A stretch of 21,002 nucleotides of DNA from a virus: the IMG/VR virus record IMGVR_UViG_3300027847_000713, positions 1 to 21,002 of that record. One strand, given 5' to 3'. This document shows, one piece after another, positions 2,343 through 18,143 of the stretch. Numbering within the stretch: position 1 is the first letter of the stretch; each line of letters begins with the position of its first letter. Position numbers and translations under genes: made by a program. Below the pieces are notes generated by a model. It had not been told where the DNA came from and searched no databases. It saw only the letters and a program-made list of their open reading frames with translations.

Positions 2343-3344
2343 ATGCCTACAAATCAAACTCCTTTATTAACAGCTCAAACAAATGAAAGCTATATGACAG
2401 ACTTATCTGCAGATGCAAATGCAGGTGGATATAAGACTGCTTTTGACACAACTGCACCTAGCTTTGAGTATGCAGATATTTTAGATGGTTATGATACTCG
2501 TGGATTAATGAATGAATTTGGAGAATATTTTGATCCCTATGATTTATCAAAAGAAGCATTTGCACAAAGAAATTTAGGGTTACAAGAAGATGATGTTAAT
2601 GCTAGAGTACAGCAACAACAACGTAATTTTGGTATGCAACAAGATCAAGGAAGATCGAATTTAACTAACCTATATGAAACACAGCAGGAAGGTCAAGGTG
2701 GTGGATTTGCTGGTAGTGGCAGAAGAGATAGGCAAGTACAAAGAGCTATTGATGCACAATCAGGTAATTTTGAAAATCAATTGTTTAATTTAAGAGGTAT
2801 GGAGCAAACTGCACAAAGAGATTTAGATAGAGCTGGATTAGGTTTTGAACAAGATGTATTTAGTATGAGAGACAAATTTGGTAGTGATACAAGAGATACT
2901 TTATTAGATTTATTAAAAACAGGTGCAGATTTAAAACCTTTTGAAGAAGGAACTGCAGAATATAAGGCAAGAGTGGGTAATCAAACCAACCTAGGTAGTA
3001 TCATCCCTGAAGATTTTGATGCAGATGCAGCATTTGATACTACAATGAATAACATGGATGATGCATTTGGAGAAGGAAATCTAGGATTACCTCCTTGGCA
3101 AAGTGCTGATGCTACAGTAGCACCAGCAGTACCTTGGAATTTAGGTGGTGGAGCTGAAGGTGATTATGATGCTCTAAATCCTAATCAGACTCCTTTAAGT
3201 ACAGCTGAAGGTGATTATGATGCTCTAAATCCTATACAACCTCGTTTAAGTGCAAATGCACAAGAATACTTAAAAAATAGAGGCATGGGATGGGAAAACA
3301 CTGCATCTGGTCAAAATTTTAGAAAAAACTACCCTGGAGGATAA
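2343..3344 (+). CDS. Putative internal virion protein, Gln-rich, 333 aa
   Basis: The ATG at 2343 follows AGGAA (2332-2336), which overlaps the previous stop. Residues about 75-195 are rich in Gln, Arg, Asp and Glu with helix-like periodicity (for example VQQQQRNFGMQQDQGRSNL), suggesting a long coiled helix, and include a Gly-rich break GQGGGFAGSGRRDR. The C-terminus is acidic and low in complexity and contains a 17-residue tandem duplication starting AEGDYDALNP. The features fit a soluble internal or ejection protein of the gp15 type, but there is no family signature I can name. It lies 3 nt upstream of the next gene in the same late operon. Confidence 0.6.
   Translation: MPTNQTPLLTAQTNESYMTDLSADANAGGYKTAFDTTAPSFEYADILDGYDTRGLMNEFGEYFDPYDLSKEAFAQRNLGLQEDDVNARVQQQQRNFGMQQDQGRSNLTNLYETQQEGQGGGFAGSGRRDRQVQRAIDAQSGNFENQLFNLRGMEQTAQRDLDRAGLGFEQDVFSMRDKFGSDTRDTLLDLLKTGADLKPFEEGTAEYKARVGNQTNLGSIIPEDFDADAAFDTTMNNMDDAFGEGNLGLPPWQSADATVAPAVPWNLGGGAEGDYDALNPNQTPLSTAEGDYDALNPIQPRLSANAQEYLKNRGMGWENTASGQNFRKNYPGG
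3153..3254 (+). repeat. In-frame 51-nt tandem duplication (two copies)
   Basis: Copy 1 spans 3153-3203 and copy 2 spans 3204-3254. The first 30 nt of each copy are identical (encoding AEGDYDALNP) and the last 21 nt have diverged. The period is a multiple of three, so the host gene stays in frame with two 17-residue protein repeats. Confidence 0.9.
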
Positions 3345-4588: not shown

Positions 4589-5557
4589 ATGGCTTTTCAA
4601 GTAGATTCTAATACAAAAATAAGACAAGCTAGAGCTTTAGTATCTAGATATAATTCAGACCCTAATCAATTTACAGATGTACAAGCAGAAAAAATTGCAT
4701 TTATAGCATATAAATTAAGTATGCCATTTAGACCTGAAAGCAAAGTTTTACAAAAATTTGCTTTTGAATTAGCTGATAGTTTAACATTTGGAATATTAGA
4801 TGATTCAAAAAAACCTACATCAAGAGGTGAAACAGTATTTGGTGAAACAGCTTCTGATAAGTTATCTGGAACTGTAGGAAGTTTGTTAGGATTAGTTGCA
4901 CCAGGTGTTGCTGGTTATAAGCTTGGTGGGGCAGCAGGTGCTGCATTAGCGAAAAGTAAAACTAAAATACCTTTTCTTGGTGCAACTACACAAATGAGAG
5001 GTAGTACATTAGAACTATCTAAATTGGGTAGTGCAATACAAGGTGCTGCACAAGGTGCTGCAACAGGAGGATTAATGGATATTTTAGAAGACCCATTAGG
5101 AGCACCTAGTAGAGCTATAACAGGTGGTGTTTTAGGTGGTGCTTTAGGAGCATTTTGGGGTGCACCTCCAATTAAACCACGATATACTCCTATGAATAGA
5201 ACTTTAAGTTCAGGTCCACAGTTAAGTCAAACAGCAGGTGGAACAGGTAGGGGAGGTATACCTTCAGCATCAGAAGTTCGTGTTGTGGCTGGTAGTCGAG
5301 TAACAAATATGTCATCTCAAAAAGCAAATGATTTAGCTAACATGGGTATATTAAGAGAAGTTCCTAGAAGACCTGCTACAGTAGGTGATGCTTATAAAGG
5401 TAGAATATTTGAATATATTGACCCAAGAGCAGCAGGTGATCAAATTGATCTTGGTACAGGGGCATCATCATTATTACAATTAACTCAAAATGCAGGAAGA
5501 TCGAATACAGGAATAGCAGGTTTATTTCAAAGAAACTTTAACATACAAGGATTATAA
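4589..5557 (+). CDS. Glycine-zipper virion protein, paralogous to the N-terminus of the giant protein, 322 aa
   Basis: A strong AGGAGGA (4575-4581) lies 7 nt before ATG 4589. Residues 15-50 form a short charged helical module (RALVSRYNSDPNQFTD), followed by an amphipathic region (LADSLTFGILDD). Two Gly/Ala-rich hydrophobic stretches follow at about 94-120 and 146-191 (for example ITGGVLGGALGAFWGAP) that look like glycine-zipper membrane helices. The same order of elements occurs in residues 47-270 of the downstream 3034-aa protein, so the two are probably paralogues. The C-terminal third is Gly/Ser/Arg-rich with no recognisable domain. A role in forming the DNA or protein ejection channel is plausible. 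The paralogy is read by eye and has not been computed. Confidence 0.6.
   Translation: MAFQVDSNTKIRQARALVSRYNSDPNQFTDVQAEKIAFIAYKLSMPFRPESKVLQKFAFELADSLTFGILDDSKKPTSRGETVFGETASDKLSGTVGSLLGLVAPGVAGYKLGGAAGAALAKSKTKIPFLGATTQMRGSTLELSKLGSAIQGAAQGAATGGLMDILEDPLGAPSRAITGGVLGGALGAFWGAPPIKPRYTPMNRTLSSGPQLSQTAGGTGRGGIPSASEVRVVAGSRVTNMSSQKANDLANMGILREVPRRPATVGDAYKGRIFEYIDPRAAGDQIDLGTGASSLLQLTQNAGRSNTGIAGLFQRNFNIQGL
4631..5161 (+). other. Hydrophobic module shared with the giant protein (copy A)
   Basis: Residues 15-191 of the 322-aa protein. ALVSRYNSDPNQF corresponds to SLINEYRAQPNLF in the giant protein, and SLLGLVAPGVAG to HLAGFAPSIL. Both modules end in a Gly-zipper helix after a short acidic stretch with DPLGAPSRAI or GPDEYLNSFI. 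Confidence 0.5.
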
Positions 5558-5593: not shown

Positions 5594-8500
5594 ATGGCTA
5601 ATGAACTTGAAAAGTTTAGAGAAGGTATTTCTCAAACTATTAATCCAGAGAGTGGAAGAACCTTATATGAAAGAACAAGATTATTTCCCTCTCAAACAGG
5701 ACCAAAGCCTTATAGCGAAGCAAATTACATACAAAGCCTTATAAACGAATACAGAGCACAACCAAATCTTTTTGATGATGACCAGCTTGATGTATTGCAA
5801 CAAAAGGCAAATAAACATAATATATCTTTTAAACCTGTAAGAAATACTACAACCCTATCTTCTGTAGTACAAAATTTTTCTTCAGGTTTTGTAAGAGGTT
5901 TATTTCCTATATTACCTCCTGATAATAAACCAAGAACTACATATGAAGCTATAGCACAAAGTTTAGGTCATCTAGCAGGTTTTGCACCAAGTATTTTAAG
6001 TATGCCTTTACGTGGTGCAACTACAGGATTAAGAGCTGTGGCAACTGCTGCAGGTATGGTTAAAACAGCAAAAAAATTATCAGACATAAAAGGAGCAGCA
6101 GGTACTGGCTTTATAGGAATGAAAACAGTTGCATTTTTAGATAAAGCATCTTTTCCTATGATGGCATCAAGATTTGCTAAAAGAGGATTAAATAAAAGTT
6201 TTAGTAAACTTGAAGGAGATGCCTTAGAATTCTTTAGACCTGGTACTGCAGCTAGAGCTATAACAGAAGAAGCTATTGGTTTAGGTGCAGCAAGTACAAT
6301 ATCTAATGTATGGGCTGGACCTGATGAATATTTAAATTCATTTATAGGAGGTGCAATAGCAGGTGGTGCTTTTGGTGGTATAGGTAATTATGTATCTATA
6401 GCAAACAGATTAAAGGTAGGCACACTAGCACAAAGAAAGGGTGCAGAAAGAGCATTAAGAGCTTCTTTAGGTGCATCGGTTACTGGTCTTCCATCTACAA
6501 TGAGAGATGATCCTGTAGAGATGCAGTTATATGAATATTTACTAGGTGGTTTTTTTGGTTACAATTCTAGACCTGCATATGAAGCTGTAGGTGGTGCACA
6601 CTTTGCTGGAATGAATTCTTTTAATAAAAGCTTATCGTTAAGACCAGAAAAAAGCGAAGGGTTTACAGATTTAGCTCCTAAAGCACAAGAATATGTTTTA
6701 CAAAAATCTACTGAACAAGCCAAAACATGGTTAAATAGACATGATTATTTGTATGAAGGTGTAGATGTAGAAAGTATAATAGGTAGAAGATTAAGCCAAG
6801 AACATTTTAATCCTACACAAAAACAAATAGATAAAGAATATAGAGATTTTGCTTATGAAGAATATAATAAAATTGTTGACAAAATGCCTGAGATGGAGCT
6901 TAAAACAAAATTGGATGATAATGCTCATCCTGATAATAGGACCGATTCGGTTGATGATTATAATCCTTTCTCAGTTAGCTTTGATGTTATTTCTAGGGGT
7001 ATGCTTAGAGATATTAAATCACATTCAGGCAAATATAACAATGACTTTACAGGCGTTAAAACAGAATTAAATGATTATCTATCAAGAAATATATTTGAGG
7101 TAGACCCTAATACAAACATAGTTGATCCCTCTACAAAAAGAAGTGCTCCTGATGTAGAAACTTTTGTTAACTCATTAAAAAATCATGAGAGTTATAGTAG
7201 GTTGTTTCAGCCTGAATATAAAAAACAAAATAAAGTTAATACAGATTATGAAACAGAATTACGTAGATTGTTTTTTCAAGCAGCACAATTACCTAATAAA
7301 ACACAAACTTTTGATGGTAAAAATGTAGAAACACAAATGCCAGAACGTATTGACTTTGAACAATTAGGTGTTAATCATTTTAACTCTCCTGTATTAGATA
7401 CTTTTGGTGCAGGTAGAGGATTTGAGTTTTTACATTATTTTAAAAAAGATGTACCAACTGGTAAATGGGTATACAAAAAAGGAAAGCATGGGCAAAAAGG
7501 AAAATTAGTAATTAATAAAAATACTCAATATAAAGATTTAGTTGATATTTTTACAAAAGTAAATAATGAATATGTAGATAAAAATCAAATTAATAATTTA
7601 TTTACATCTTTATCAAAACAAAATAAATATGTATATGCAGGTAGTAAAGATAAAGGGCATGTTATTACAGCAAGTTTTAATGATAGAAATGGTACAATAA
7701 AATTAGAATCAATCTTAAATAAAACAAATTTTAAAGATAAAGAAATAGAACAATACAGAAAAGATTATAAAGAATCTGTAATTGAATTTAAAGAATTGTA
7801 TACTGGTAAAGACCCTGAAATTTTACATGATAGAATATTTGTTTCAAACTTAAGACATGAATTAATAAATCATAATTATCCAACAGATTCACAAGGTAAC
7901 TTTTTTAGAAATGATATACGAAAAGTAGTTGGAACAAAAGAATATAAAAAAGATGGTAAAGATTCTTATTTTCAAAATGCTGTAGATTATAATAAAAGAA
8001 TGCAAGGTTTTATAGAAGCCTCTGGTGTTCCTATGAACAAAACTTCTTTCTTAAATTCTCTACCAGATGGTAAAATAAAATATTTAGTTGTAAAAGATAT
8101 AGATTTTGACCCATACCCAGAACCTTTAAAACCTGGTCAAAAAGAACCTGACCCTTCATCAGCAACTGATGGTGGTAGATTTTTTAGACAAAAAGTTTTT
8201 GCAGATATAATTAGAGCATTAGGATTTCCTAAATCTTTTGATAATATAAAACCTGTTAGTTTTGGATTACCAGATACAGGTAGCCATGGTTTATTTTTTC
8301 ATAAAACTAGTGGTAAACGTGCAACAGGTGCAATTGAAGATTTAATTAATAGAGCAGGTGTAGATTATATAGTATTTGAATCAGGTAGTAAAATACGTGG
8401 TACAGAAAATTTAACAAGAGTTGATTATGACCCTATAAACAATAAATATAATTTTAAAAAAACAGAATATGAAACAATGGAAAATGGGGTTCTTGTTAAA

Positions 8501-11500
8501 AAACAAAGAGATATTATAAATACACATAGTGCAGGTATAGAAACATTAAGAATGAATCCATCTACATACGAAGATGCAGGTAAAGGGTTTAGAGGTATAC
8601 GTATACCTATACAATTTTTTAAAACATTAACTAAAGAAGATACACCCCAAGCATATAAAAATTTTATAAAACATTATTATAAAATTCCAAGATTTGAACA
8701 AGAGTTAGTAAATGAGTTTAATAAAACTAAAGATTTTACTAAGATAGAAAATCATTTAAATAAAGATTATTCTAATATAGATAGGTTTCCTTTAGACTTT
8801 GTTATAGAACAATTATCTAATACAGCTAAACAAGGACAAGCATTTAGAAAAGCATTACAAAAAATAGCAAAAGATGATGCACCTTTTACAAGTAGTTTTG
8901 TAAATAAAGGAGATGAAAGATTTGATTTTTACCATGAAAAAAATAATAATTGGAACTATCTAAATCAAGGGCAATTTACAGGTAATGCAATAGCAGCACA
9001 AGCAAGAAATTCATATTTAAATTCAGTTTCTAAATATTTTAAACAAAGAGCAACTTCACCATTTTGGGAATATGGTGGTAAAGGTTGGCTTAATCCTGTT
9101 ACAAAAGATATAGCATTAACATCTGATATGATAACCAATAAACAACTTGCTCAAGGTGAGGTTTTATTAGATGTAGATTACAAACCTATGAAAACAGTTA
9201 TAAATGATTTAAAATCTGACCATCAAAAAAGATTAAATTTTATTATTAAAAGTTTAAAGGATGTTAAAAATAAAAAAGAAATTAATAAAGATAATGAATC
9301 AAACTTAGGTACATTGTGGGAAACATATAAATATTTGAAGAAAACTAATTCTAGCCCTGACCTAGCTAAAATATTAGAAAATGCATTTGATCTTTTGGTT
9401 ATACGTGTACCTGCTGATGCAGTTAGTGGAACAAGAGTTTTAAAGTTTAAAGGATTTACTAAGCAAAAAGGCACAGGTATTAATACACATAAAACAGATG
9501 ATAAATATCTAGGAGGGGCTGATAAAGATGCTGATTCTGCATTCATTATTCAAGGTGGGGAAAGAAATCACATAAAAGAATTAAATAAAGACTCGGTTAA
9601 GTTTGAGAGGAAAAACAAGTGGAATTTAACTGATGATAAAGATTATGATAAGTTAAATAAACAGCTTGGTGCTGAATTACCTAACATTGGTTCTTTTAGT
9701 AAATTTAGTCCTTCATTTAGAATGAAAGCATTTGAGGTAGGAAAAGAAGGTGCTAATGTAAGAGGTGGTTTTATTGCTATGAGAGATGCAATGTATGACT
9801 TGTATTTAAATGTACAAGGTGGTAAAAACTTATATATATTTGATAAAGATACTGGTAAAAAAACAGGCATTTATAAAGACCAAGATGGAAATTATGTACC
9901 AAATAAAAGAGGATTAGGTAGACAACAATATAATGAGGAAATATTTGAATTAAAAATTAAACCAGAAAGTATTACAGAATTTAGAAAAAAAGTTTTTGGT
10001 TTAATAAATATTGCAAATGATAGTACAAAATACACAAAGATACCAGATATATATAAAGCTAAAGCAGATTTATTAAATACTTTATTTATAGCAAAAGATT
10101 TAAAAGGTAAAAGAATTGATTTTAAAGATTTAATAAAATATGACAAAGAATATACAAATTTTAAAGATGTATTAAATACAGCAGATATTGCAAAAATTGC
10201 AAAAGATAGAAGTGATAAAAAAGATGTAATAAAAATAAAACATAATGATAAAGATATTACTTTACCAACTAAAAAATTTATAGGTGAAACAATAAGATTT
10301 GATAAAATCTTAACAAACATACTTCTTAAAAAAGAATTATTAGTTAAAGGACCTTTTGGTTTAGAAATAAATAAACAAAAAGTTTTAAAATATAAAGATA
10401 TAGAAAATTTTCATAAAACTTTTAAAAAAGATAAAGTAGCTCAAGATAAAAAAAGCATTGATTATTTACGAGATTTAAAAATGAATTTTGATTATTCTGG
10501 TAATTATCAAAGTCCTACTGGACAACAATTTAAAAATGCTTTTAAAAATGACCCAGTTTTATATAAAATTGAAAATGCTGAAAAAGCAAAATTATTTCAA
10601 GATAATTTAAGAACTGATGTTGAAAGATTTAGCAAATCTAATAATGATAAAAAGTTTTTAGAAAAATTAATTGATGTTACTAAAGACCCTATTTTAAAGT
10701 TCCAAGATACAACCACTGGAAGAAAGGATTCTCTTTTATATTTTGATAATTTAAAACCTGCTAAAATTAGAAGCATTAGTAAGAATACTAAAAATAATTT
10801 TTTCTCTGATTTAGATGTAAATATGAAAAAAATATCTGGATATGAATTGTTAACCGAAAGATCGTTAGAAGTTTTTGAAAGCTTTAGTCCTTCAAAGCAA
10901 AAAAATTATGACAAAATTTCTGAACAATTACAAAACATTTATAAAAGAGCAAATAAAATTAAAAAGACTCATAATGATAGAAGTAACCCTGATAGAGATC
11001 AACGCTTTGATACAAAAGATAGTCTTGAAAAACATGAAACAGGTAATAGATTTGAAATTACAGATGGACAAATAAGAGATTATAAAAAAGTTATATTAGA
11101 GTTTGCTAAAAATAATAATGTAGATGCAATTCCATTAATTAAATTTTTTGATACTGCTTTATTAATACCATACAAAGTAGGTCAAAAAAATAAATATTAT
11201 GATTTTCCTCCACAAAGTGAAATGGTAGATGGAAAAAAGAAATATACAGAAAAAAAAGAAATGGTAGATTTTTATAGACCTAATGACCATTTTTTTTCTT
11301 CTTATGAAGTAGGTGCTGTAGCTAAAAAAAATATGCTAGATAGAATGCATTTACTATTTGAAAAGTCTGATGCAAATTTAAAACCAGGAGTTGTACAAAA
11401 GACAATACAGTTTCCTGTTTTTGAACCTATTAAACAATATTTTAAACCTTTAGCTGAAAAATATACAGAGATAGTATCTAATCCTGATAAAGCCAAATCA

Positions 11501-14500
11501 ATTGCAGATGATATTTTAACTAATACTAAAAAGAATGTTACACAATATGAAAAAGATAATTTAGACATATTAGCATTTAACAATAAAGATTTTCAAACAA
11601 TAAAAGAATTTAGAGAAAATATAAAAAAATATTCTGCTATAGATTCTATAAACGATTATTTTATGGAGTATTCATACAGGCAACAAGGTGTTGCAAAAGA
11701 TATATCTAAAATGTCTATTAGTGATATTAAAAGTATGAATGAAAATTTTAAATGGATAGAACGTGGACAAAAAGATAAATTTAAATGGTTGACATGGTTA
11801 AGAGACCCAAGAGATATTTCTGAAAGAGATTTAGCTCCATCTATGGTAAAAGTTTATGATAACTTTTTATCACCTGTTAGAACAGCTAAAGGTATAGAAC
11901 AAAAAAAACTAGCACGTTTTATTAGTCCTTTAGGTGAAATGAGAGAAGCTTTTAAAAATGTAAGACTTTTACAAGACAAAGTTTTAAATATTGAGAATGA
12001 TATACTATCAAAAGAATTTGAATTTACATCATTAATGAATGCAAATGATAAAGTTACATTAACAGAATTAATTTCTAATAAAAGAAATGTAGAAGAACCT
12101 AGATTAAGAAGTGAAAAATATACAGAATTTTTAAATAAAGATTTTTATTTTGACATACCTATTAAAAATAAATTTGGTATAGGTAAAACAAAATGGAATG
12201 GTCAAGAGTTATTAGATAAGTATGATAAAGTTACAACAGAGTTTTATGAAAGAATGGGTAAAGAATATACTTATACATATGATAAAGATGGTAAAAGAAT
12301 AATTTTTAATGACATTATTGATATTAAGAATCCAACATTTGGTAAACTAAATAATAATATAGAATATGATAAAAATGGTAGATTTAATTTAGAACATTTT
12401 TATAAAAAATTATTAACAATAAAAAATAATAAATTACCTGAAGGTATTTCTTTAGAGCAATTATTAAGGTATCAATATGAATACTCAATGGAAAAAGATT
12501 TATTAATTAAAAATAAAAATGCTAAACCTACTTTACAACAACGTATAGACTACAGGTTAAAAAATAATTTTACAAAACAAATGGGTATTGGTCGTATTGA
12601 ACCTAGTGAGTATTGGTCAAGATTAAATTATGGTCATAATACAGAATCAAGAAAGCTTATGCAAGAAAGCGTTGAAAAATATGCTAAGCAAGAAGCATTA
12701 TCAAGGGGTGGTTCTAAAGAAAAAATTGAAAAGGAATATCAAAAAATTGTAGAACAATTATTACAAGCTAGAGAAAAAAGTTTAAATAACTCAGCAAGAT
12801 TTGAAGATGCATTTTTAGATAAGCAATATGAAAATGTAGGTTTTGGTTCAAGACCTCCTAACCTTTTACAAAGAGGTGAAATATTTATTGATGGTTATGA
12901 TAAAACACCTAATACTTTTTCTTCTTATAATCAAAGAACTATAAGAAGTTTATTTTCTAATATATCTGCAATATATGGAAATAGGCAAATAGATTTATTT
13001 AGAAAAAACAAAGCTATGGATAAGCATTTTGAAATATCTAATGATATTAAAAGACATAATTCATCAGTAGAAAATGAAGCTGAATCTTTATATAGAAAAA
13101 TTATTATTGATGGTGTAAAAGAAGGTAGTAAAAATGAAAAATTAGCTAAAAGAAAAAGAGCTGAATATATTAATAGAAACGAATATAAAAACAATACAGA
13201 TATGTGGGCTGATTTTCTTTATATTTATTTAAAAAATAGTTTAGGACATCCTTCTTTACTTACTAATAGAATACAAAAATCTATGGATGGTGCTGATCCT
13301 TTAAAATTAAAGTATAATCCATATTATTTTACATCTGATTACGCAGTTACTAAAGCATTAGAAAGATTATATAAAACTGATAAATTTAATAAAATGCCTT
13401 TTTTACGTAATGCACCTGAAGGTAAAGACGCTAGAAGAGATTATTTTGTTAGAAGATTACACGACCTAGGTTCTATGGAAGCTCGTTTTAATTTAATGAC
13501 AATACTAGCTAATACTGGTACTATGTCTACTAATTTATATGGTGGTGCTTCCATGAATATAGCTAGTGCTGGTTTAAAAAACTTTATTGATTCTAAAAAA
13601 GAAAAAGTAGTTGTTGATAAATTACTAAAAGATATTAATGGTGATTTTATTATTAAGTTACAAAATGGTACAAAAGTTAAAACAAGAAAAGATTTAATTA
13701 AATATTTACAAGAAGAAGGTATTATAGACAATTATTTAGCACAAGTAGATTTAGAATATAATGTAGGTTTAAAACAAGGAATTAGCAAACTAGGTGCTAA
13801 CTCTAAAAACTTTATAAAAGATATTAAAAATACAATGAAATCTAATAACAATGAAAATGCAATAGATGTTGTACAGAGATATGGTGTATCAAATACAATG
13901 ACTAAATATGGTGGTCTATTTATGCAATTTTCTGAAAGAATAAATAGAACTGATGCTTTTTTATCACATGCATTACAAGCTAAGGAAAATCTTGGTAGAC
14001 ATGGTATACATGTAAATATGAAAGATCCTTATATTTTTGAGGCAGGTTTAAAAGGTATTGAAACAACACAATTCTTATATCATAATTCTTTTAGACCAGC
14101 ATTTATGACAACTGCATTAGGTAAAGTATTAACACGTTTTAAATTATTTGCATTTCAATCTGTTAGAGTTAGACAAGAATTTCATAGAAAATCAAAATCC
14201 TATGGTTTTAAAGAAGGAACACCAGAATACAAAAAATATAAAGATTTATTTTTAATAGATATATTTACCATGGCTATGGCAGGTGCATATATGTATTCTA
14301 TATTTGATACAGCATTACCACCACCATATGATTGGTATCAAGATACAGCAGATTTATTATTTGGAGATAAAACAGAAAGAGATAGAGCTTTTTATGGTAC
14401 TTTACCAAGACCTATAGCACCATTACAAGCTGTTCTGCCTCCTATAAGTAGAGTACCTGGTTCTATAATTGAATTAATATCTGGTGATTGGCAAAAGTTT

Positions 14501-14698
14501 TCTGATTATACTATACATACAATGTATCCTTTTGGTAGATTAGTTTATACAGGTAAAAAACAAATAGAACACCCTGAAAGATTTTTTGAAAACTTTTTTA
14601 GGATACCTGTAAATAAAGTTAAATACAGAATAAACAAAGTAGATATGTTAAATAAGCGTAAAAATGATGATAATGAATTTTTTGAAGATGAAGAATAA
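5594..14698 (+). CDS. Giant virion protein with crAss/YonO-type RNA polymerase motifs, 3034 aa
   Basis: ATG 5594 follows TAAGGTG (5578-5584); the frame is open for 9.1 kb to TAA 14696-14698. Domains seen: residues 47-270 are hydrophobic and Gly-rich, paralogous to the upstream 322-aa protein. Residues 858-936 hold TDGG (D859), KTSGK (K904) and DYIVFESGSKIRG (K933). RGIRIPIQFFK lies around Q1007. RVP (R1271) is followed by GGADKDADSAFI, giving DxDxD at D1310/D1312/D1314. INIANDSTK lies at about 1472-1479. This order matches my recollection of phage RNA polymerases with two double-psi beta-barrels (crAss-like gp66, YonO), where the aspartates bind catalytic Mg. The C-terminus has FRPAFMTTALGKVLTRFK (from 2833) and a membrane-like helix (2885-2904). 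Its position as last late gene resembles T7 gp16. Inferred role: polymerase carried in the virion and ejected with the DNA. The large Lys/Asn-rich middle is unassigned. Confidence 0.62.
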   Translation: MANELEKFREGISQTINPESGRTLYERTRLFPSQTGPKPYSEANYIQSLINEYRAQPNLFDDDQLDVLQQKANKHNISFKPVRNTTTLSSVVQNFSSGFVRGLFPILPPDNKPRTTYEAIAQSLGHLAGFAPSILSMPLRGATTGLRAVATAAGMVKTAKKLSDIKGAAGTGFIGMKTVAFLDKASFPMMASRFAKRGLNKSFSKLEGDALEFFRPGTAARAITEEAIGLGAASTISNVWAGPDEYLNSFIGGAIAGGAFGGIGNYVSIANRLKVGTLAQRKGAERALRASLGASVTGLPSTMRDDPVEMQLYEYLLGGFFGYNSRPAYEAVGGAHFAGMNSFNKSLSLRPEKSEGFTDLAPKAQEYVLQKSTEQAKTWLNRHDYLYEGVDVESIIGRRLSQEHFNPTQKQIDKEYRDFAYEEYNKIVDKMPEMELKTKLDDNAHPDNRTDSVDDYNPFSVSFDVISRGMLRDIKSHSGKYNNDFTGVKTELNDYLSRNIFEVDPNTNIVDPSTKRSAPDVETFVNSLKNHESYSRLFQPEYKKQNKVNTDYETELRRLFFQAAQLPNKTQTFDGKNVETQMPERIDFEQLGVNHFNSPVLDTFGAGRGFEFLHYFKKDVPTGKWVYKKGKHGQKGKLVINKNTQYKDLVDIFTKVNNEYVDKNQINNLFTSLSKQNKYVYAGSKDKGHVITASFNDRNGTIKLESILNKTNFKDKEIEQYRKDYKESVIEFKELYTGKDPEILHDRIFVSNLRHELINHNYPTDSQGNFFRNDIRKVVGTKEYKKDGKDSYFQNAVDYNKRMQGFIEASGVPMNKTSFLNSLPDGKIKYLVVKDIDFDPYPEPLKPGQKEPDPSSATDGGRFFRQKVFADIIRALGFPKSFDNIKPVSFGLPDTGSHGLFFHKTSGKRATGAIEDLINRAGVDYIVFESGSKIRGTENLTRVDYDPINNKYNFKKTEYETMENGVLVKKQRDIINTHSAGIETLRMNPSTYEDAGKGFRGIRIPIQFFKTLTKEDTPQAYKNFIKHYYKIPRFEQELVNEFNKTKDFTKIENHLNKDYSNIDRFPLDFVIEQLSNTAKQGQAFRKALQKIAKDDAPFTSSFVNKGDERFDFYHEKNNNWNYLNQGQFTGNAIAAQARNSYLNSVSKYFKQRATSPFWEYGGKGWLNPVTKDIALTSDMITNKQLAQGEVLLDVDYKPMKTVINDLKSDHQKRLNFIIKSLKDVKNKKEINKDNESNLGTLWETYKYLKKTNSSPDLAKILENAFDLLVIRVPADAVSGTRVLKFKGFTKQKGTGINTHKTDDKYLGGADKDADSAFIIQGGERNHIKELNKDSVKFERKNKWNLTDDKDYDKLNKQLGAELPNIGSFSKFSPSFRMKAFEVGKEGANVRGGFIAMRDAMYDLYLNVQGGKNLYIFDKDTGKKTGIYKDQDGNYVPNKRGLGRQQYNEEIFELKIKPESITEFRKKVFGLINIANDSTKYTKIPDIYKAKADLLNTLFIAKDLKGKRIDFKDLIKYDKEYTNFKDVLNTADIAKIAKDRSDKKDVIKIKHNDKDITLPTKKFIGETIRFDKILTNILLKKELLVKGPFGLEINKQKVLKYKDIENFHKTFKKDKVAQDKKSIDYLRDLKMNFDYSGNYQSPTGQQFKNAFKNDPVLYKIENAEKAKLFQDNLRTDVERFSKSNNDKKFLEKLIDVTKDPILKFQDTTTGRKDSLLYFDNLKPAKIRSISKNTKNNFFSDLDVNMKKISGYELLTERSLEVFESFSPSKQKNYDKISEQLQNIYKRANKIKKTHNDRSNPDRDQRFDTKDSLEKHETGNRFEITDGQIRDYKKVILEFAKNNNVDAIPLIKFFDTALLIPYKVGQKNKYYDFPPQSEMVDGKKKYTEKKEMVDFYRPNDHFFSSYEVGAVAKKNMLDRMHLLFEKSDANLKPGVVQKTIQFPVFEPIKQYFKPLAEKYTEIVSNPDKAKSIADDILTNTKKNVTQYEKDNLDILAFNNKDFQTIKEFRENIKKYSAIDSINDYFMEYSYRQQGVAKDISKMSISDIKSMNENFKWIERGQKDKFKWLTWLRDPRDISERDLAPSMVKVYDNFLSPVRTAKGIEQKKLARFISPLGEMREAFKNVRLLQDKVLNIENDILSKEFEFTSLMNANDKVTLTELISNKRNVEEPRLRSEKYTEFLNKDFYFDIPIKNKFGIGKTKWNGQELLDKYDKVTTEFYERMGKEYTYTYDKDGKRIIFNDIIDIKNPTFGKLNNNIEYDKNGRFNLEHFYKKLLTIKNNKLPEGISLEQLLRYQYEYSMEKDLLIKNKNAKPTLQQRIDYRLKNNFTKQMGIGRIEPSEYWSRLNYGHNTESRKLMQESVEKYAKQEALSRGGSKEKIEKEYQKIVEQLLQAREKSLNNSARFEDAFLDKQYENVGFGSRPPNLLQRGEIFIDGYDKTPNTFSSYNQRTIRSLFSNISAIYGNRQIDLFRKNKAMDKHFEISNDIKRHNSSVENEAESLYRKIIIDGVKEGSKNEKLAKRKRAEYINRNEYKNNTDMWADFLYIYLKNSLGHPSLLTNRIQKSMDGADPLKLKYNPYYFTSDYAVTKALERLYKTDKFNKMPFLRNAPEGKDARRDYFVRRLHDLGSMEARFNLMTILANTGTMSTNLYGGASMNIASAGLKNFIDSKKEKVVVDKLLKDINGDFIIKLQNGTKVKTRKDLIKYLQEEGIIDNYLAQVDLEYNVGLKQGISKLGANSKNFIKDIKNTMKSNNNENAIDVVQRYGVSNTMTKYGGLFMQFSERINRTDAFLSHALQAKENLGRHGIHVNMKDPYIFEAGLKGIETTQFLYHNSFRPAFMTTALGKVLTRFKLFAFQSVRVRQEFHRKSKSYGFKEGTPEYKKYKDLFLIDIFTMAMAGAYMYSIFDTALPPPYDWYQDTADLLFGDKTERDRAFYGTLPRPIAPLQAVLPPISRVPGSIIELISGDWQKFSDYTIHTMYPFGRLVYTGKKQIEHPERFFENFFRIPVNKVKYRINKVDMLNKRKNDDNEFFEDEE
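5732..6403 (+). other. Hydrophobic ejection-type module of the giant protein (copy B)
   Basis: Residues 47-270. A short charged helical unit is followed by GFVRGLFPILPPDNKPRT, an Ala/Gly/Leu stretch with LGHLAGFAPSIL, and a glycine-zipper helix (FIGGAIAGGAFGGIGNYV). The elements occur in the same order as in the preceding gene. Probably membrane-interacting. Confidence 0.5.
8168..8404 (+). other. Candidate first double-psi beta-barrel (DPBB1) motifs
   Basis: D859-G-G starts the segment, followed by NIKPVSFG. FFHKTSGK contains K904, and VDYIVFESGSKIRG contains K933. In crAss-like phage polymerases the corresponding lysines would match the two conserved lysines of the beta-subunit barrel. The match is by recalled family pattern and is not an alignment. 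Confidence 0.5.
9401..9535 (+). other. Candidate second double-psi beta-barrel (DPBB2) with DxDxD metal site
   Basis: IRVPADAVSGTRVLKFKGF (from residue 1270) leads about 35 residues later into GGADKDADSAFI. D1310, D1312 and D1314 align with the DFDGD motif of cellular beta-prime and the DFDID motif of crAss-like polymerases. Phe/Leu at the second position is Lys here, and Gly/Ile at the fourth is Ala. Confidence 0.58.
14090..14305 (+). other. C-terminal membrane/ejection-type segment of the giant protein
   Basis: FRPAFMTTALGKVLTRFK (from F2833), an amphipathic basic helix, is followed by a hydrophobic stretch LFLIDIFTMAMAGAYMYSIF (2885-2904) and a Pro-rich turn. Similar C-termini are familiar from large phage internal proteins; a role in membrane contact during ejection is inferred. 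Confidence 0.4.
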
Positions 14699-16370: not shown

Positions 16371-18143
16371 CTATATTGCTTGTTTAAATCTAAATGTTTC
16401 ATGATTAAAATAACATCTTAATTTAAAACTAGATTCATCTCTTGCAACAATACTTTCTATAACTCTAGCCTTACCATTAGGGTCAGGTGCATATATGCCT
16501 AGTAGTTTATCTGATTTTTGTTCTATAGATGAATCACCTTTAGCACTATGTCTAGTTAGATTACCTTCAAACGCTGCACTTTTACTAATATGACTTACAA
16601 CAAATATCATTACCTCATATTTTTGAGCAATTTCTTTTAGCTTACTTACTATTCGCTGCATTTTTACAAGTGAATCATTTGCATAATCAACACGTATCTC
16701 ATCAATAGTATCTATTACAATTATCTTAGGTTGTAAATTAGATATTACATCTATAATATTATTTATTTCTGGAGATACAGTCATTAGTTTTATGTGTCCA
16801 AGCTTTTCATTTGCTTGTTTAAAGAACTCTTTATCATTGCTTTTATATTTATCAATAACATCTTGTTTACTGATATTGAATGCAATTTGATTGAATCTTC
16901 TCCACATAAGCAATTGGTTTACCTCTAATGATAGATACAAACATTTAAATTGATTAGCCCTTACTATAAGGTTTTGTATAAAAGCTGTTTTACCAAGCTT
17001 AGTATCACCAATCATTGTAATAAGATCGCCTATTGTAAACTTATAACTACCACCAATATCATAGAAATCATTTAAGTCAAAACTATTACTATCATCTTCA
17101 GCCTCTACAAATTCTTGGAATTGTTGTGTCATAGTATCTGCATTAAATATTTCTACACCATAGTCTTTATGTTTGTAGAATTTACATTTAGTATCACAAA
17201 ATAAATCCATTATAGAATCTTGACAGCCATACCCATCATGTTCCCATTTATATATTGTATCTAGCATTGATTTAGTTTCTGCTATATCAAATGATGGAGA
17301 CCATTTATGAATAAGACTTTCAGTGCCCTCTCTTGGAATACCACTACGTTTCCATGCAGATGCCATACGTAATACTGTTTGATGACGTTTACCTTGTACT
17401 GGTCCTTGTGCAAACATTTTTTGTACACAAGTTACATGTGCAGTTAGGTCTGACTTAGTATTATTTTTAGGTTTACTTACAGGTACTTGATGAGACTTAC
17501 CCATTACAATATATTTTTCCCACAAAGGTTCAAAAGATGCTCTAGGCATTATTAATCTTTGGGGATCATGTTGACCTTCATATATGGTTGTGTTTTGTGC
17601 ATGTTCTACAAATTCATTGTATGTAAATTCATTAAGCATATCTATTGATACAGGTATTTTGTATGTATTATTTTTAATATTGTATGAATATTTAGTTCTA
17701 ATTAATCTAGCCCTATCATAAATATTATCTATTCCAAATTTACCTACAGCTTTATCTATGCTTAGTCTCATTATATTAGGCAAGTCTACATGGTTACCTA
17801 TATGAAATAAGTCTGGTAAATGCATATGAAAGCCTGTACCTGAGAACCATATTTCAAAATTATCATCTAATTCTTTTACTAAGAAATCAACAATATTTTT
17901 TACTGGTTCTAAAGATAGGTCTCCTATCTTACAATCTACATCAAGAACTATTTCATCTATATTGTATGTACCACTGTATTCTTTTATCTTTCCATTAAAT
18001 GTATTATCATACAAAAATAATGAGCGATAAAATTCTGTGCCTTTTTTACCAGCAACGTGGTTAGGTAGTTCATTATAAGGAATGACGTTACCTCTGTTGG
18101 CAACGCCTCCTATAGCTATTTCTACATACGATTTATCATCCAT
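16371..18143 (-). CDS. Primase-helicase: AEP primase fused to DnaB-like ATPase, 590 aa
   Basis: The N-terminal half carries archaeo-eukaryotic primase motifs: VLDVD (D68, D70) for metal binding, FSGTGFHMH (S101, H106) and VSIDM (D168). The middle contains four cysteines (C239, C307, C316, C320) that could bind zinc or an Fe-S cluster, in a primase C-terminal-like helical region (GKRHQTVLRMASAW). The C-terminal half is a RecA/DnaB-type ATPase: Walker A GDTKLGKT (379-386), Walker B IIVIDTIDE (D478) and FVVSHISK (H518). The protein would synthesise primers and unwind DNA at the fork, as T7 gp4 does with a different (TOPRIM) primase. ATG 18143 follows AGGGAA and overlaps the upstream gene by 22 nt. 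I see no separate zinc-binding domain at the N-terminus. Confidence 0.82.
   Translation of the reverse strand: MDDKSYVEIAIGGVANRGNVIPYNELPNHVAGKKGTEFYRSLFLYDNTFNGKIKEYSGTYNIDEIVLDVDCKIGDLSLEPVKNIVDFLVKELDDNFEIWFSGTGFHMHLPDLFHIGNHVDLPNIMRLSIDKAVGKFGIDNIYDRARLIRTKYSYNIKNNTYKIPVSIDMLNEFTYNEFVEHAQNTTIYEGQHDPQRLIMPRASFEPLWEKYIVMGKSHQVPVSKPKNNTKSDLTAHVTCVQKMFAQGPVQGKRHQTVLRMASAWKRSGIPREGTESLIHKWSPSFDIAETKSMLDTIYKWEHDGYGCQDSIMDLFCDTKCKFYKHKDYGVEIFNADTMTQQFQEFVEAEDDSNSFDLNDFYDIGGSYKFTIGDLITMIGDTKLGKTAFIQNLIVRANQFKCLYLSLEVNQLLMWRRFNQIAFNISKQDVIDKYKSNDKEFFKQANEKLGHIKLMTVSPEINNIIDVISNLQPKIIVIDTIDEIRVDYANDSLVKMQRIVSKLKEIAQKYEVMIFVVSHISKSAAFEGNLTRHSAKGDSSIEQKSDKLLGIYAPDPNGKARVIESIVARDESSFKLRCYFNHETFRFKQAI

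Follow-up and report, generated by a model that had tools for sequence, protein, structure and literature searches.

In this 21,002-base record of a small uncultured phage, a genome fragment that is referred to here as the window, a giant plus-strand open reading frame (ORF; positions 5594-14698) encodes a protein of 3034 amino acids. Structural modelling assigns residues ~660-1520 of this protein (7571-10153, + strand) to the two-barrel (double-psi beta-barrel) RNA polymerases (RNAPs), in a single-chain form that shares its fold with cellular RNAPs. This module is preceded by an N-terminal domain and followed by a helical region and a C-terminal domain. The reading we favour, and consider very probable, is that the two-barrel RNAP belongs to a giant virion protein that is packaged, ejected, and used to transcribe the first phage genes on entry. 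An earlier, sequence-only reading had proposed that a giant protein from the virion block contains a crAss-like RNAP, and profile homology, Foldseek searches, and VIA alignments now agree with that assignment.

Conserved motifs of the giant protein family

When used as a query, the giant protein retrieved nothing informative from Pfam, PHROGs, PDB sequences, or INPHARED (tblastn); a RhoGAP match was rejected at 15.8 bits, under the RhoGAP cut-off. Single-sequence scans of IMG/VR viral contigs recovered only two close relatives, about 88% identical. The wider family was found in IMG/VR with a degenerate DNA pattern for GADKDAD and then a broader pattern for YLGG[AS]DxDxD. These two motif scans yielded about 85 loci with long ORFs, the complete ones reaching up to 3225 amino acids, and the family ORFs have in common the pattern R.P......G.R......GF....G......(Y)LGGADxDxD. 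One relative comes from a short contig that was assigned by binning to Flavobacteriaceae bacterium UBA5079, which is weak evidence for a host.

In the window protein, the motifs begin at residues 858 (TDGG, with D859), 904 (KTSGK), 929 (ESGSKIRG, with K933), 1000 (RGIRIPIQ, with Q1007), 1271 (RVP), 1307 (GGADKDAD, with D1310, D1312, and D1314), and 1471 (INIANDSTK). The interval from D859 to D1314 corresponds to 8168-9535, and the residues and coordinates named previously all proved exact when the ORF was re-checked. Conservation was then assessed across 41 non-redundant members (<80% identity, median pairwise identity 24%). All 41 carry D859, K886, K904, K933, R1271, P1273, R1281, G1287, G1293, D1310, D1312, and D1314. 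The GGAD sequence and the aspartate spacing were built into the search patterns and are thus invariant by construction; the other residues are independent of the search. The almost invariant positions of the protein's central part concentrate in residues ~800-1500. Most of the residues singled out previously are genuine catalytic signatures, but K908, the second lysine of KTSGK, is retained in only 6 of 41 members, and Q1007 is conserved (35 of 41) rather than invariant. N1472 and D1476 are present in 38 and 39 members, respectively. The invariant K886 had been overlooked.

The conserved features are all encoded on the plus strand and occur in a defined order. TDGG (8165-8176) is followed by K886 (8249-8251) in the first, beta-like barrel region, and then by K904 (8303-8305) and K933 (8390-8392). 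Farther downstream are R1271-x-P1273 (9404-9412) and DKDAD (9521-9535), the predicted metal-binding catalytic DxDxD of the second, beta-prime-like barrel. A long helix at residues ~1373-1408 (9710-9817) with R1376 and G1386 is a candidate bridge helix on the basis of the model, motif, and conservation, and INIANDSTK (10004-10030) takes the form N..ADASKDP in other members. A close relative (L002/L009) has ~100 extra residues right before TDGG, at a site where the window protein has a short linker (residues ~842 to ~855), which suggests that this stretch is a hot spot for insertions.

By itself, the motif string is only moderately rare: it recurs in order in 6 of 2000 shuffles of the giant protein, with a pattern that was picked after sight of the sequence. 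It is more than a chance occurrence because it is conserved across the family. A coincidental string in a long protein rich in lysine and aspartate, which the shuffles might seem to favour, is excluded in practice by invariance in 41 divergent members together with profile homology and the fold match.

The positions inside DxDxD vary across the family, with K, N, or H at the first and A, S, I, or G at the second (DKDAD, DKDSD, DKDID, DNDGD, DKDGD, and DHDID). The proposal of a divergent branch marked by Lys and Ala at these positions thus stands with respect to divergence, but these two residues are not fixed. Such unusual residues, and the putative status of the family's activity, could also fit a dead or structural two-barrel descendant that was retained as an ejection or DNA-binding protein. 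We consider this quite improbable, since the first-barrel lysines and the RxP motif are invariant at ~24% identity and their loss would be expected in a dead enzyme.

Predicted structure of the polymerase module

An AlphaFold2 model of residues 600-1520, built with 34 family sequences, has a predicted local distance difference test score (pLDDT) of 73 and a predicted template modelling score (pTM) of 0.74. The fold comparison called for by the earlier proposal returned two-barrel RNAPs as the best matches. Specifically, the best Foldseek match in the PDB is 6vr4, the virion RNAP of phage phi14:2 (E 3.1e-10), followed by QDE-1, RDR2, and large subunits of cellular RNAPs. VIA alignments gave Z scores of 17.5 for QDE-1 (498 residues, root-mean-square deviation 5.3), 15.8 for RDR2, and 12.0 for 6vr4 (622 residues), and among other phage enzymes 10.9 for P74-26 gp62, 10.3 for gp64, and 8.9 for P23-45 gp96. 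The Foldseek and VIA matches cover model residues 54-912, including both motif regions. In a comparison with predicted viral structures, an unnamed protein ranks first (E 2.3e-23), and giant proteins with crAss-like RNAPs are found lower down.

The top VIA score of QDE-1 raises the prospect of a different reaction, namely RNA-templated RNA synthesis as in QDE-1 and RDR2, or DNA synthesis as in archaeal PolD. In addition, the few replication genes that were scanned did not include a named DNA polymerase. Nevertheless, the nearest phage relative by both Foldseek and profile comparison is the DNA-dependent crAss enzyme, and we judge such a different reaction to be quite unlikely. Neither PolD nor YonO appears among the structure matches listed, which does not speak against either.

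Sequence homology to crAss-like polymerases

For comparison at the sequence level, a crAss-like RNAP profile was assembled from 10 sequences gathered around phi14:2, with AGO48955 of the GenBank record taken as the comparison enzyme. HHalign matched the family profile to this profile with an E value of 2.6e-7, a probability of 93%, and a score of 73. The highest score among 30 column-shuffled controls was 17.8, and reversed controls scored about 20. The alignment pairs TDGG with TDAQ, its counterpart in crAss-like RNAPs, and K886, K904, and K933 with crAss lysines, of which the partners of K904 and K933 are themselves conserved. A Viterbi alignment without realignment extends in register from before TDGG to DxDxD.

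An RxP motif upstream of DxDxD is also present in crAss-like RNAPs, P23-45 gp96, and gp64. By eye, RNPVMGHGG of P23-45 gp96 and RIPNQGQSS of phi14:2 look like RNPNSGNGG of the family, and the downstream K.G.G (bridge-helix) and N...DxxKDP motifs agree with those of crAss-like enzymes, in which the latter reads VDVAKDP. As single sequences, P23-45 gp96 and gp64 gave no significant match to the family profile, so that kinship to these two proteins rests on the fold. A profile search of PDB sequences returned no polymerase.

A separate large protein, a 1425-residue ORF on a contig of 65,976 bases (L013), reads RHPFIGAHSMQ...MGADKDADIIMAV. It may represent a further family of two-barrel polymerases that carries the same DKDAD.

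Domains flanking the polymerase

The N-terminal region (residues ~1-350; 5594-6643, + strand) is conserved in the family profile. Within it, residues ~43-134 match the upstream ORF of 322 amino acids (4589-5557, + strand; hhalign E 2.9e-7), which is a candidate second ejection-type protein. Several relatives have an ORF at the same position before the giant gene.

Beyond the polymerase, residues ~1521-2580 (10154-13333, + strand) are mostly helical in the model. A model of residues 1501-2629 (10094-13480; pLDDT 66.6), about 1100 mostly helical residues that are partly well predicted around 2100-2400, found no PDB match. Next comes a conserved C-terminal domain at residues ~2581-3005 (13334-14608, + strand). 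Residues ~2770-2860 match a PLxRFG/DarB-like giant protein of Klebsiella phage ZX1 (profile against single sequence, E 4.3e-6). Polyvalent proteins of the phage type are believed to be packed into particles and injected (PMC5512222). A membrane-spanning N-terminus is not supported for the window protein, as the only membrane-like segment by hydropathy is at residues 2885-2903.

Two relatives show further domain associations. The C-terminus of one (L029, residues 2963-3085) matches phrog_11358 near its C-terminal end (E 2.9e-8). This 3431-position profile of unknown function represents a further family of giant phage proteins whose C-terminal domain is similar. The other (L052, 2940-11927) has an inserted DprA-like domain (phrog_768) at residues ~790-970, upstream of the TDGG region. 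This domain is ~40% identical in a protein of Klebsiella phage Pylas annotated as a virion RNA polymerase, and in crAss-like cr113_1. A DprA-like accessory domain thus adjoins virion polymerases of different kinds.

Genomic context

The giant gene is the last of the structural block. At the start of the window, an ORF of this block (3-1247, + strand) resembles phrog_511, an internal virion protein family, and phrog_3287, a virion structural family. The replication genes of the window, including a primase/DnaB-like helicase (16371-18143, − strand), are on the opposite strand and converge on the giant gene. The usual order in relatives is terminase, portal, a ~300-residue protein, head protein, and tail and virion proteins. 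The block often ends with a protein of 200-320 residues and then the giant gene, and replication genes are usually on the opposite strand. One relative (G010) is near-complete at ~45 kb, with ends that overlap by 547 bases at 94.7%.

Relatives carry a P22-type portal (phrog_156), TerL of phrog_38, and a head protein of phrog_1328. The counterparts in phi14:2 belong to phrog_6681 (TerL), phrog_6547 (portal), and phrog_11589 (head). Profile comparison of these three families from relatives, which stand in for the window as it does not contain these genes, gave no match to phi14:2. Judged by these hallmark genes, the phages do not belong to Crassvirales. Nor is the description of the window phage as a T7-style podovirus supported, given the portal and TerL types of its relatives and the lack of a PF00940 (T7-like RNAP) match in G010 and three other relatives. 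The T7 and N4 controls were positive in this search, with the N4 match falling in a gene other than gp50. That no T7-like RNAP was found in these four relatives was counted in favour of a packaged polymerase.

Other features were noted among the relatives. In a 36-kb relative, a repeated sequence (TCTCTTTTTTTTGT) before the early genes was considered as a promoter and rejected, because most copies are the 3′ arm of a terminator-like hairpin plus a T tract; the sequence is not enriched in the window. In the same relative, a number of small early genes are immediately preceded by terminator-like hairpins with T runs (L007:12200-14930). By eye, the starts of ORFs of G010 (L177, L179) and G012 (L181), VIGAGGIGSWLG and ILGCGAIGSAAA, look like those of ThiF/E1-type proteins. 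The ORF of G012 also has a JAB-like neighbour, which together suggests a gene pair for ubiquitin-like conjugation.

Proposed mechanism

Packaging of the giant protein in the virion, and its injection along with the DNA, are probable. This proposal draws on the position of the gene at the end of the structural block, the N-terminal domain common with the upstream ORF, the PLxRFG/DarB-like C-terminus, and the layout of N4 gp50. In the proposed mechanism, the first barrel would carry D859, K886, K904, and K933, and the second would carry R1271-x-P and the Mg-binding triad D1310/D1312/D1314, followed by a bridge-helix-like segment and the N..xDxxK motif. The giant protein would be packed in the capsid and pass through a short tail, either before the DNA or together with it. 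It would then remain at the DNA entry channel, where the polymerase would transcribe the first phage genes during genome entry. We infer both catalytic activity and early-gene transcription. The models for this scheme are N4 gp50, which has an unrelated catalytic domain, and crAss-like gp66, which has a related one.

Alternatively, an active two-barrel RNAP might be made after infection for middle or late genes, like YonO or P23-45 gp64. Two-barrel RNAPs of this kind exist (PMC5467207, PMC10770324), and the VIA alignments to the non-virion gp62 and gp64 (Z 10.9 and 10.3) are at least as good as that to the virion gp96 (8.9). However, the known non-virion enzymes are compact single proteins, whereas the module here is part of a ~3000-residue chain in the structural block that has a domain in common with the neighbouring ORF and a PLxRFG-type C-terminus. 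We therefore regard a post-infection enzyme as unlikely, although it is the most plausible of the alternatives.

Several points weigh against a packaged two-barrel polymerase. The evidence for packaging consists of gene order and shared domains. No relation was detected between the flanking domains and N4 gp50, for which the best hhalign match of the N- and C-terminal domains has an E value of 0.014 against single N4 sequences. Some regions of the AlphaFold2 model have pLDDT <50, the TM-scores are low (about 0.3), and whole-chain arrangements differ from those of the matched structures. Likewise, the HHalign probability of 93% is below the 95% level, and the RxP/DxDxD segment alone is weak (E 0.75, or 8.7e-4 with a trimmed region).

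Significance and comparison with known systems

Large virion proteins that include a two-barrel virion RNAP are already known from crAss-like phages and relatives of P23-45. In the open-licence literature, excluding the supplementary tables of PMC10770324, a viral RNAP survey, we found no published description of a non-crAss family from phages of ~36-50 kb whose proteins carry D[KNH]D[ASIG]D in an N4-like layout. This family would represent a third setting for virion two-barrel RNAPs, in small phages outside both known groups and with a layout like that of N4 gp50. Whether a non-crAss lineage with genomes of about 36-50 kb and P22-type portals independently arrived at the plan of N4 gp50 is, in our judgement, evenly balanced; this plan is an ejected protein of ~3000 residues that comprises an N-terminal entry domain, a polymerase, and a C-terminal domain, here with a two-barrel catalyst of the cellular type instead of the T7-like one. 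If so, DNA entry coupled to transcription would have arisen on this plan two or more times, with polymerases that are unrelated. The about 85 loci and 41 non-redundant sequences also provide a deep alignment that links phage virion polymerases and eukaryotic RNA interference (RNAi) polymerases and helps to place the origin of two-barrel enzymes. Moreover, the compact genomes, one of them near-complete at ~45 kb, suit tests of genome entry coupled to transcription by an injected polymerase.

Similarity is most extensive to the crAss-like RNAPs, which are also single-chain two-barrel enzymes located inside very large proteins in many crAss-like phages, and with which TDxx, three lysines, RxP, DxDxD, the bridge-helix motif, and DxxKDP align. 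They differ in carrying DFDID or DFDVD, compared to D[KNH]D[ASIG]D without a DFD[IV]D-type motif here. The crAss-like phages also have other TerL, portal, and major head families, records of ~90-100 kb rather than ~36-50 kb, and other flanking domains. In P23-45, the two-barrel virion RNAP gp96 is likewise part of a giant virion protein, and is proposed to transcribe pre-early genes while the DNA enters (PMC10770324). Its RNPxxGxGG before DxDxD resembles some family members. In contrast to the protein described here, it is the N-terminal part of a 5002-residue tape measure protein in a long-tailed phage, and its structural match is weaker (Z 8.9), with no profile match from the single sequence.

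By VIA, the polymerase module aligns best with QDE-1 and plant RDR2 (Z 17.5 and 15.8), but these are eukaryotic RNAi enzymes with ~10% sequence identity. YonO of SPbeta, compared by description only, is a single-chain two-barrel RNAP with a catalytic aspartate triad (PMC5467207), but is a stand-alone enzyme of ~100 kDa for SPbeta late genes. PLxRFG/DarB-like polyvalent proteins share the ~90-residue C-terminal domain (E 4.3e-6); no RNAP module was seen in the part compared, and no search for one was made.

In its overall plan, the giant protein most resembles N4 gp50 of the Schitoviridae, which has ~3000-3500 amino acids with an N-terminal domain, a central polymerase, and a C-terminal domain, and whose gene closes the structural block and converges with the replication genes. 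The N4 virion RNAP is ejected with other proteins to form the DNA entry channel (PMC12633501). The terminal domains of the two proteins are not detectably related, and N4 gp50 has a T7-like single-subunit polymerase where the protein described here has a predicted two-barrel enzyme.

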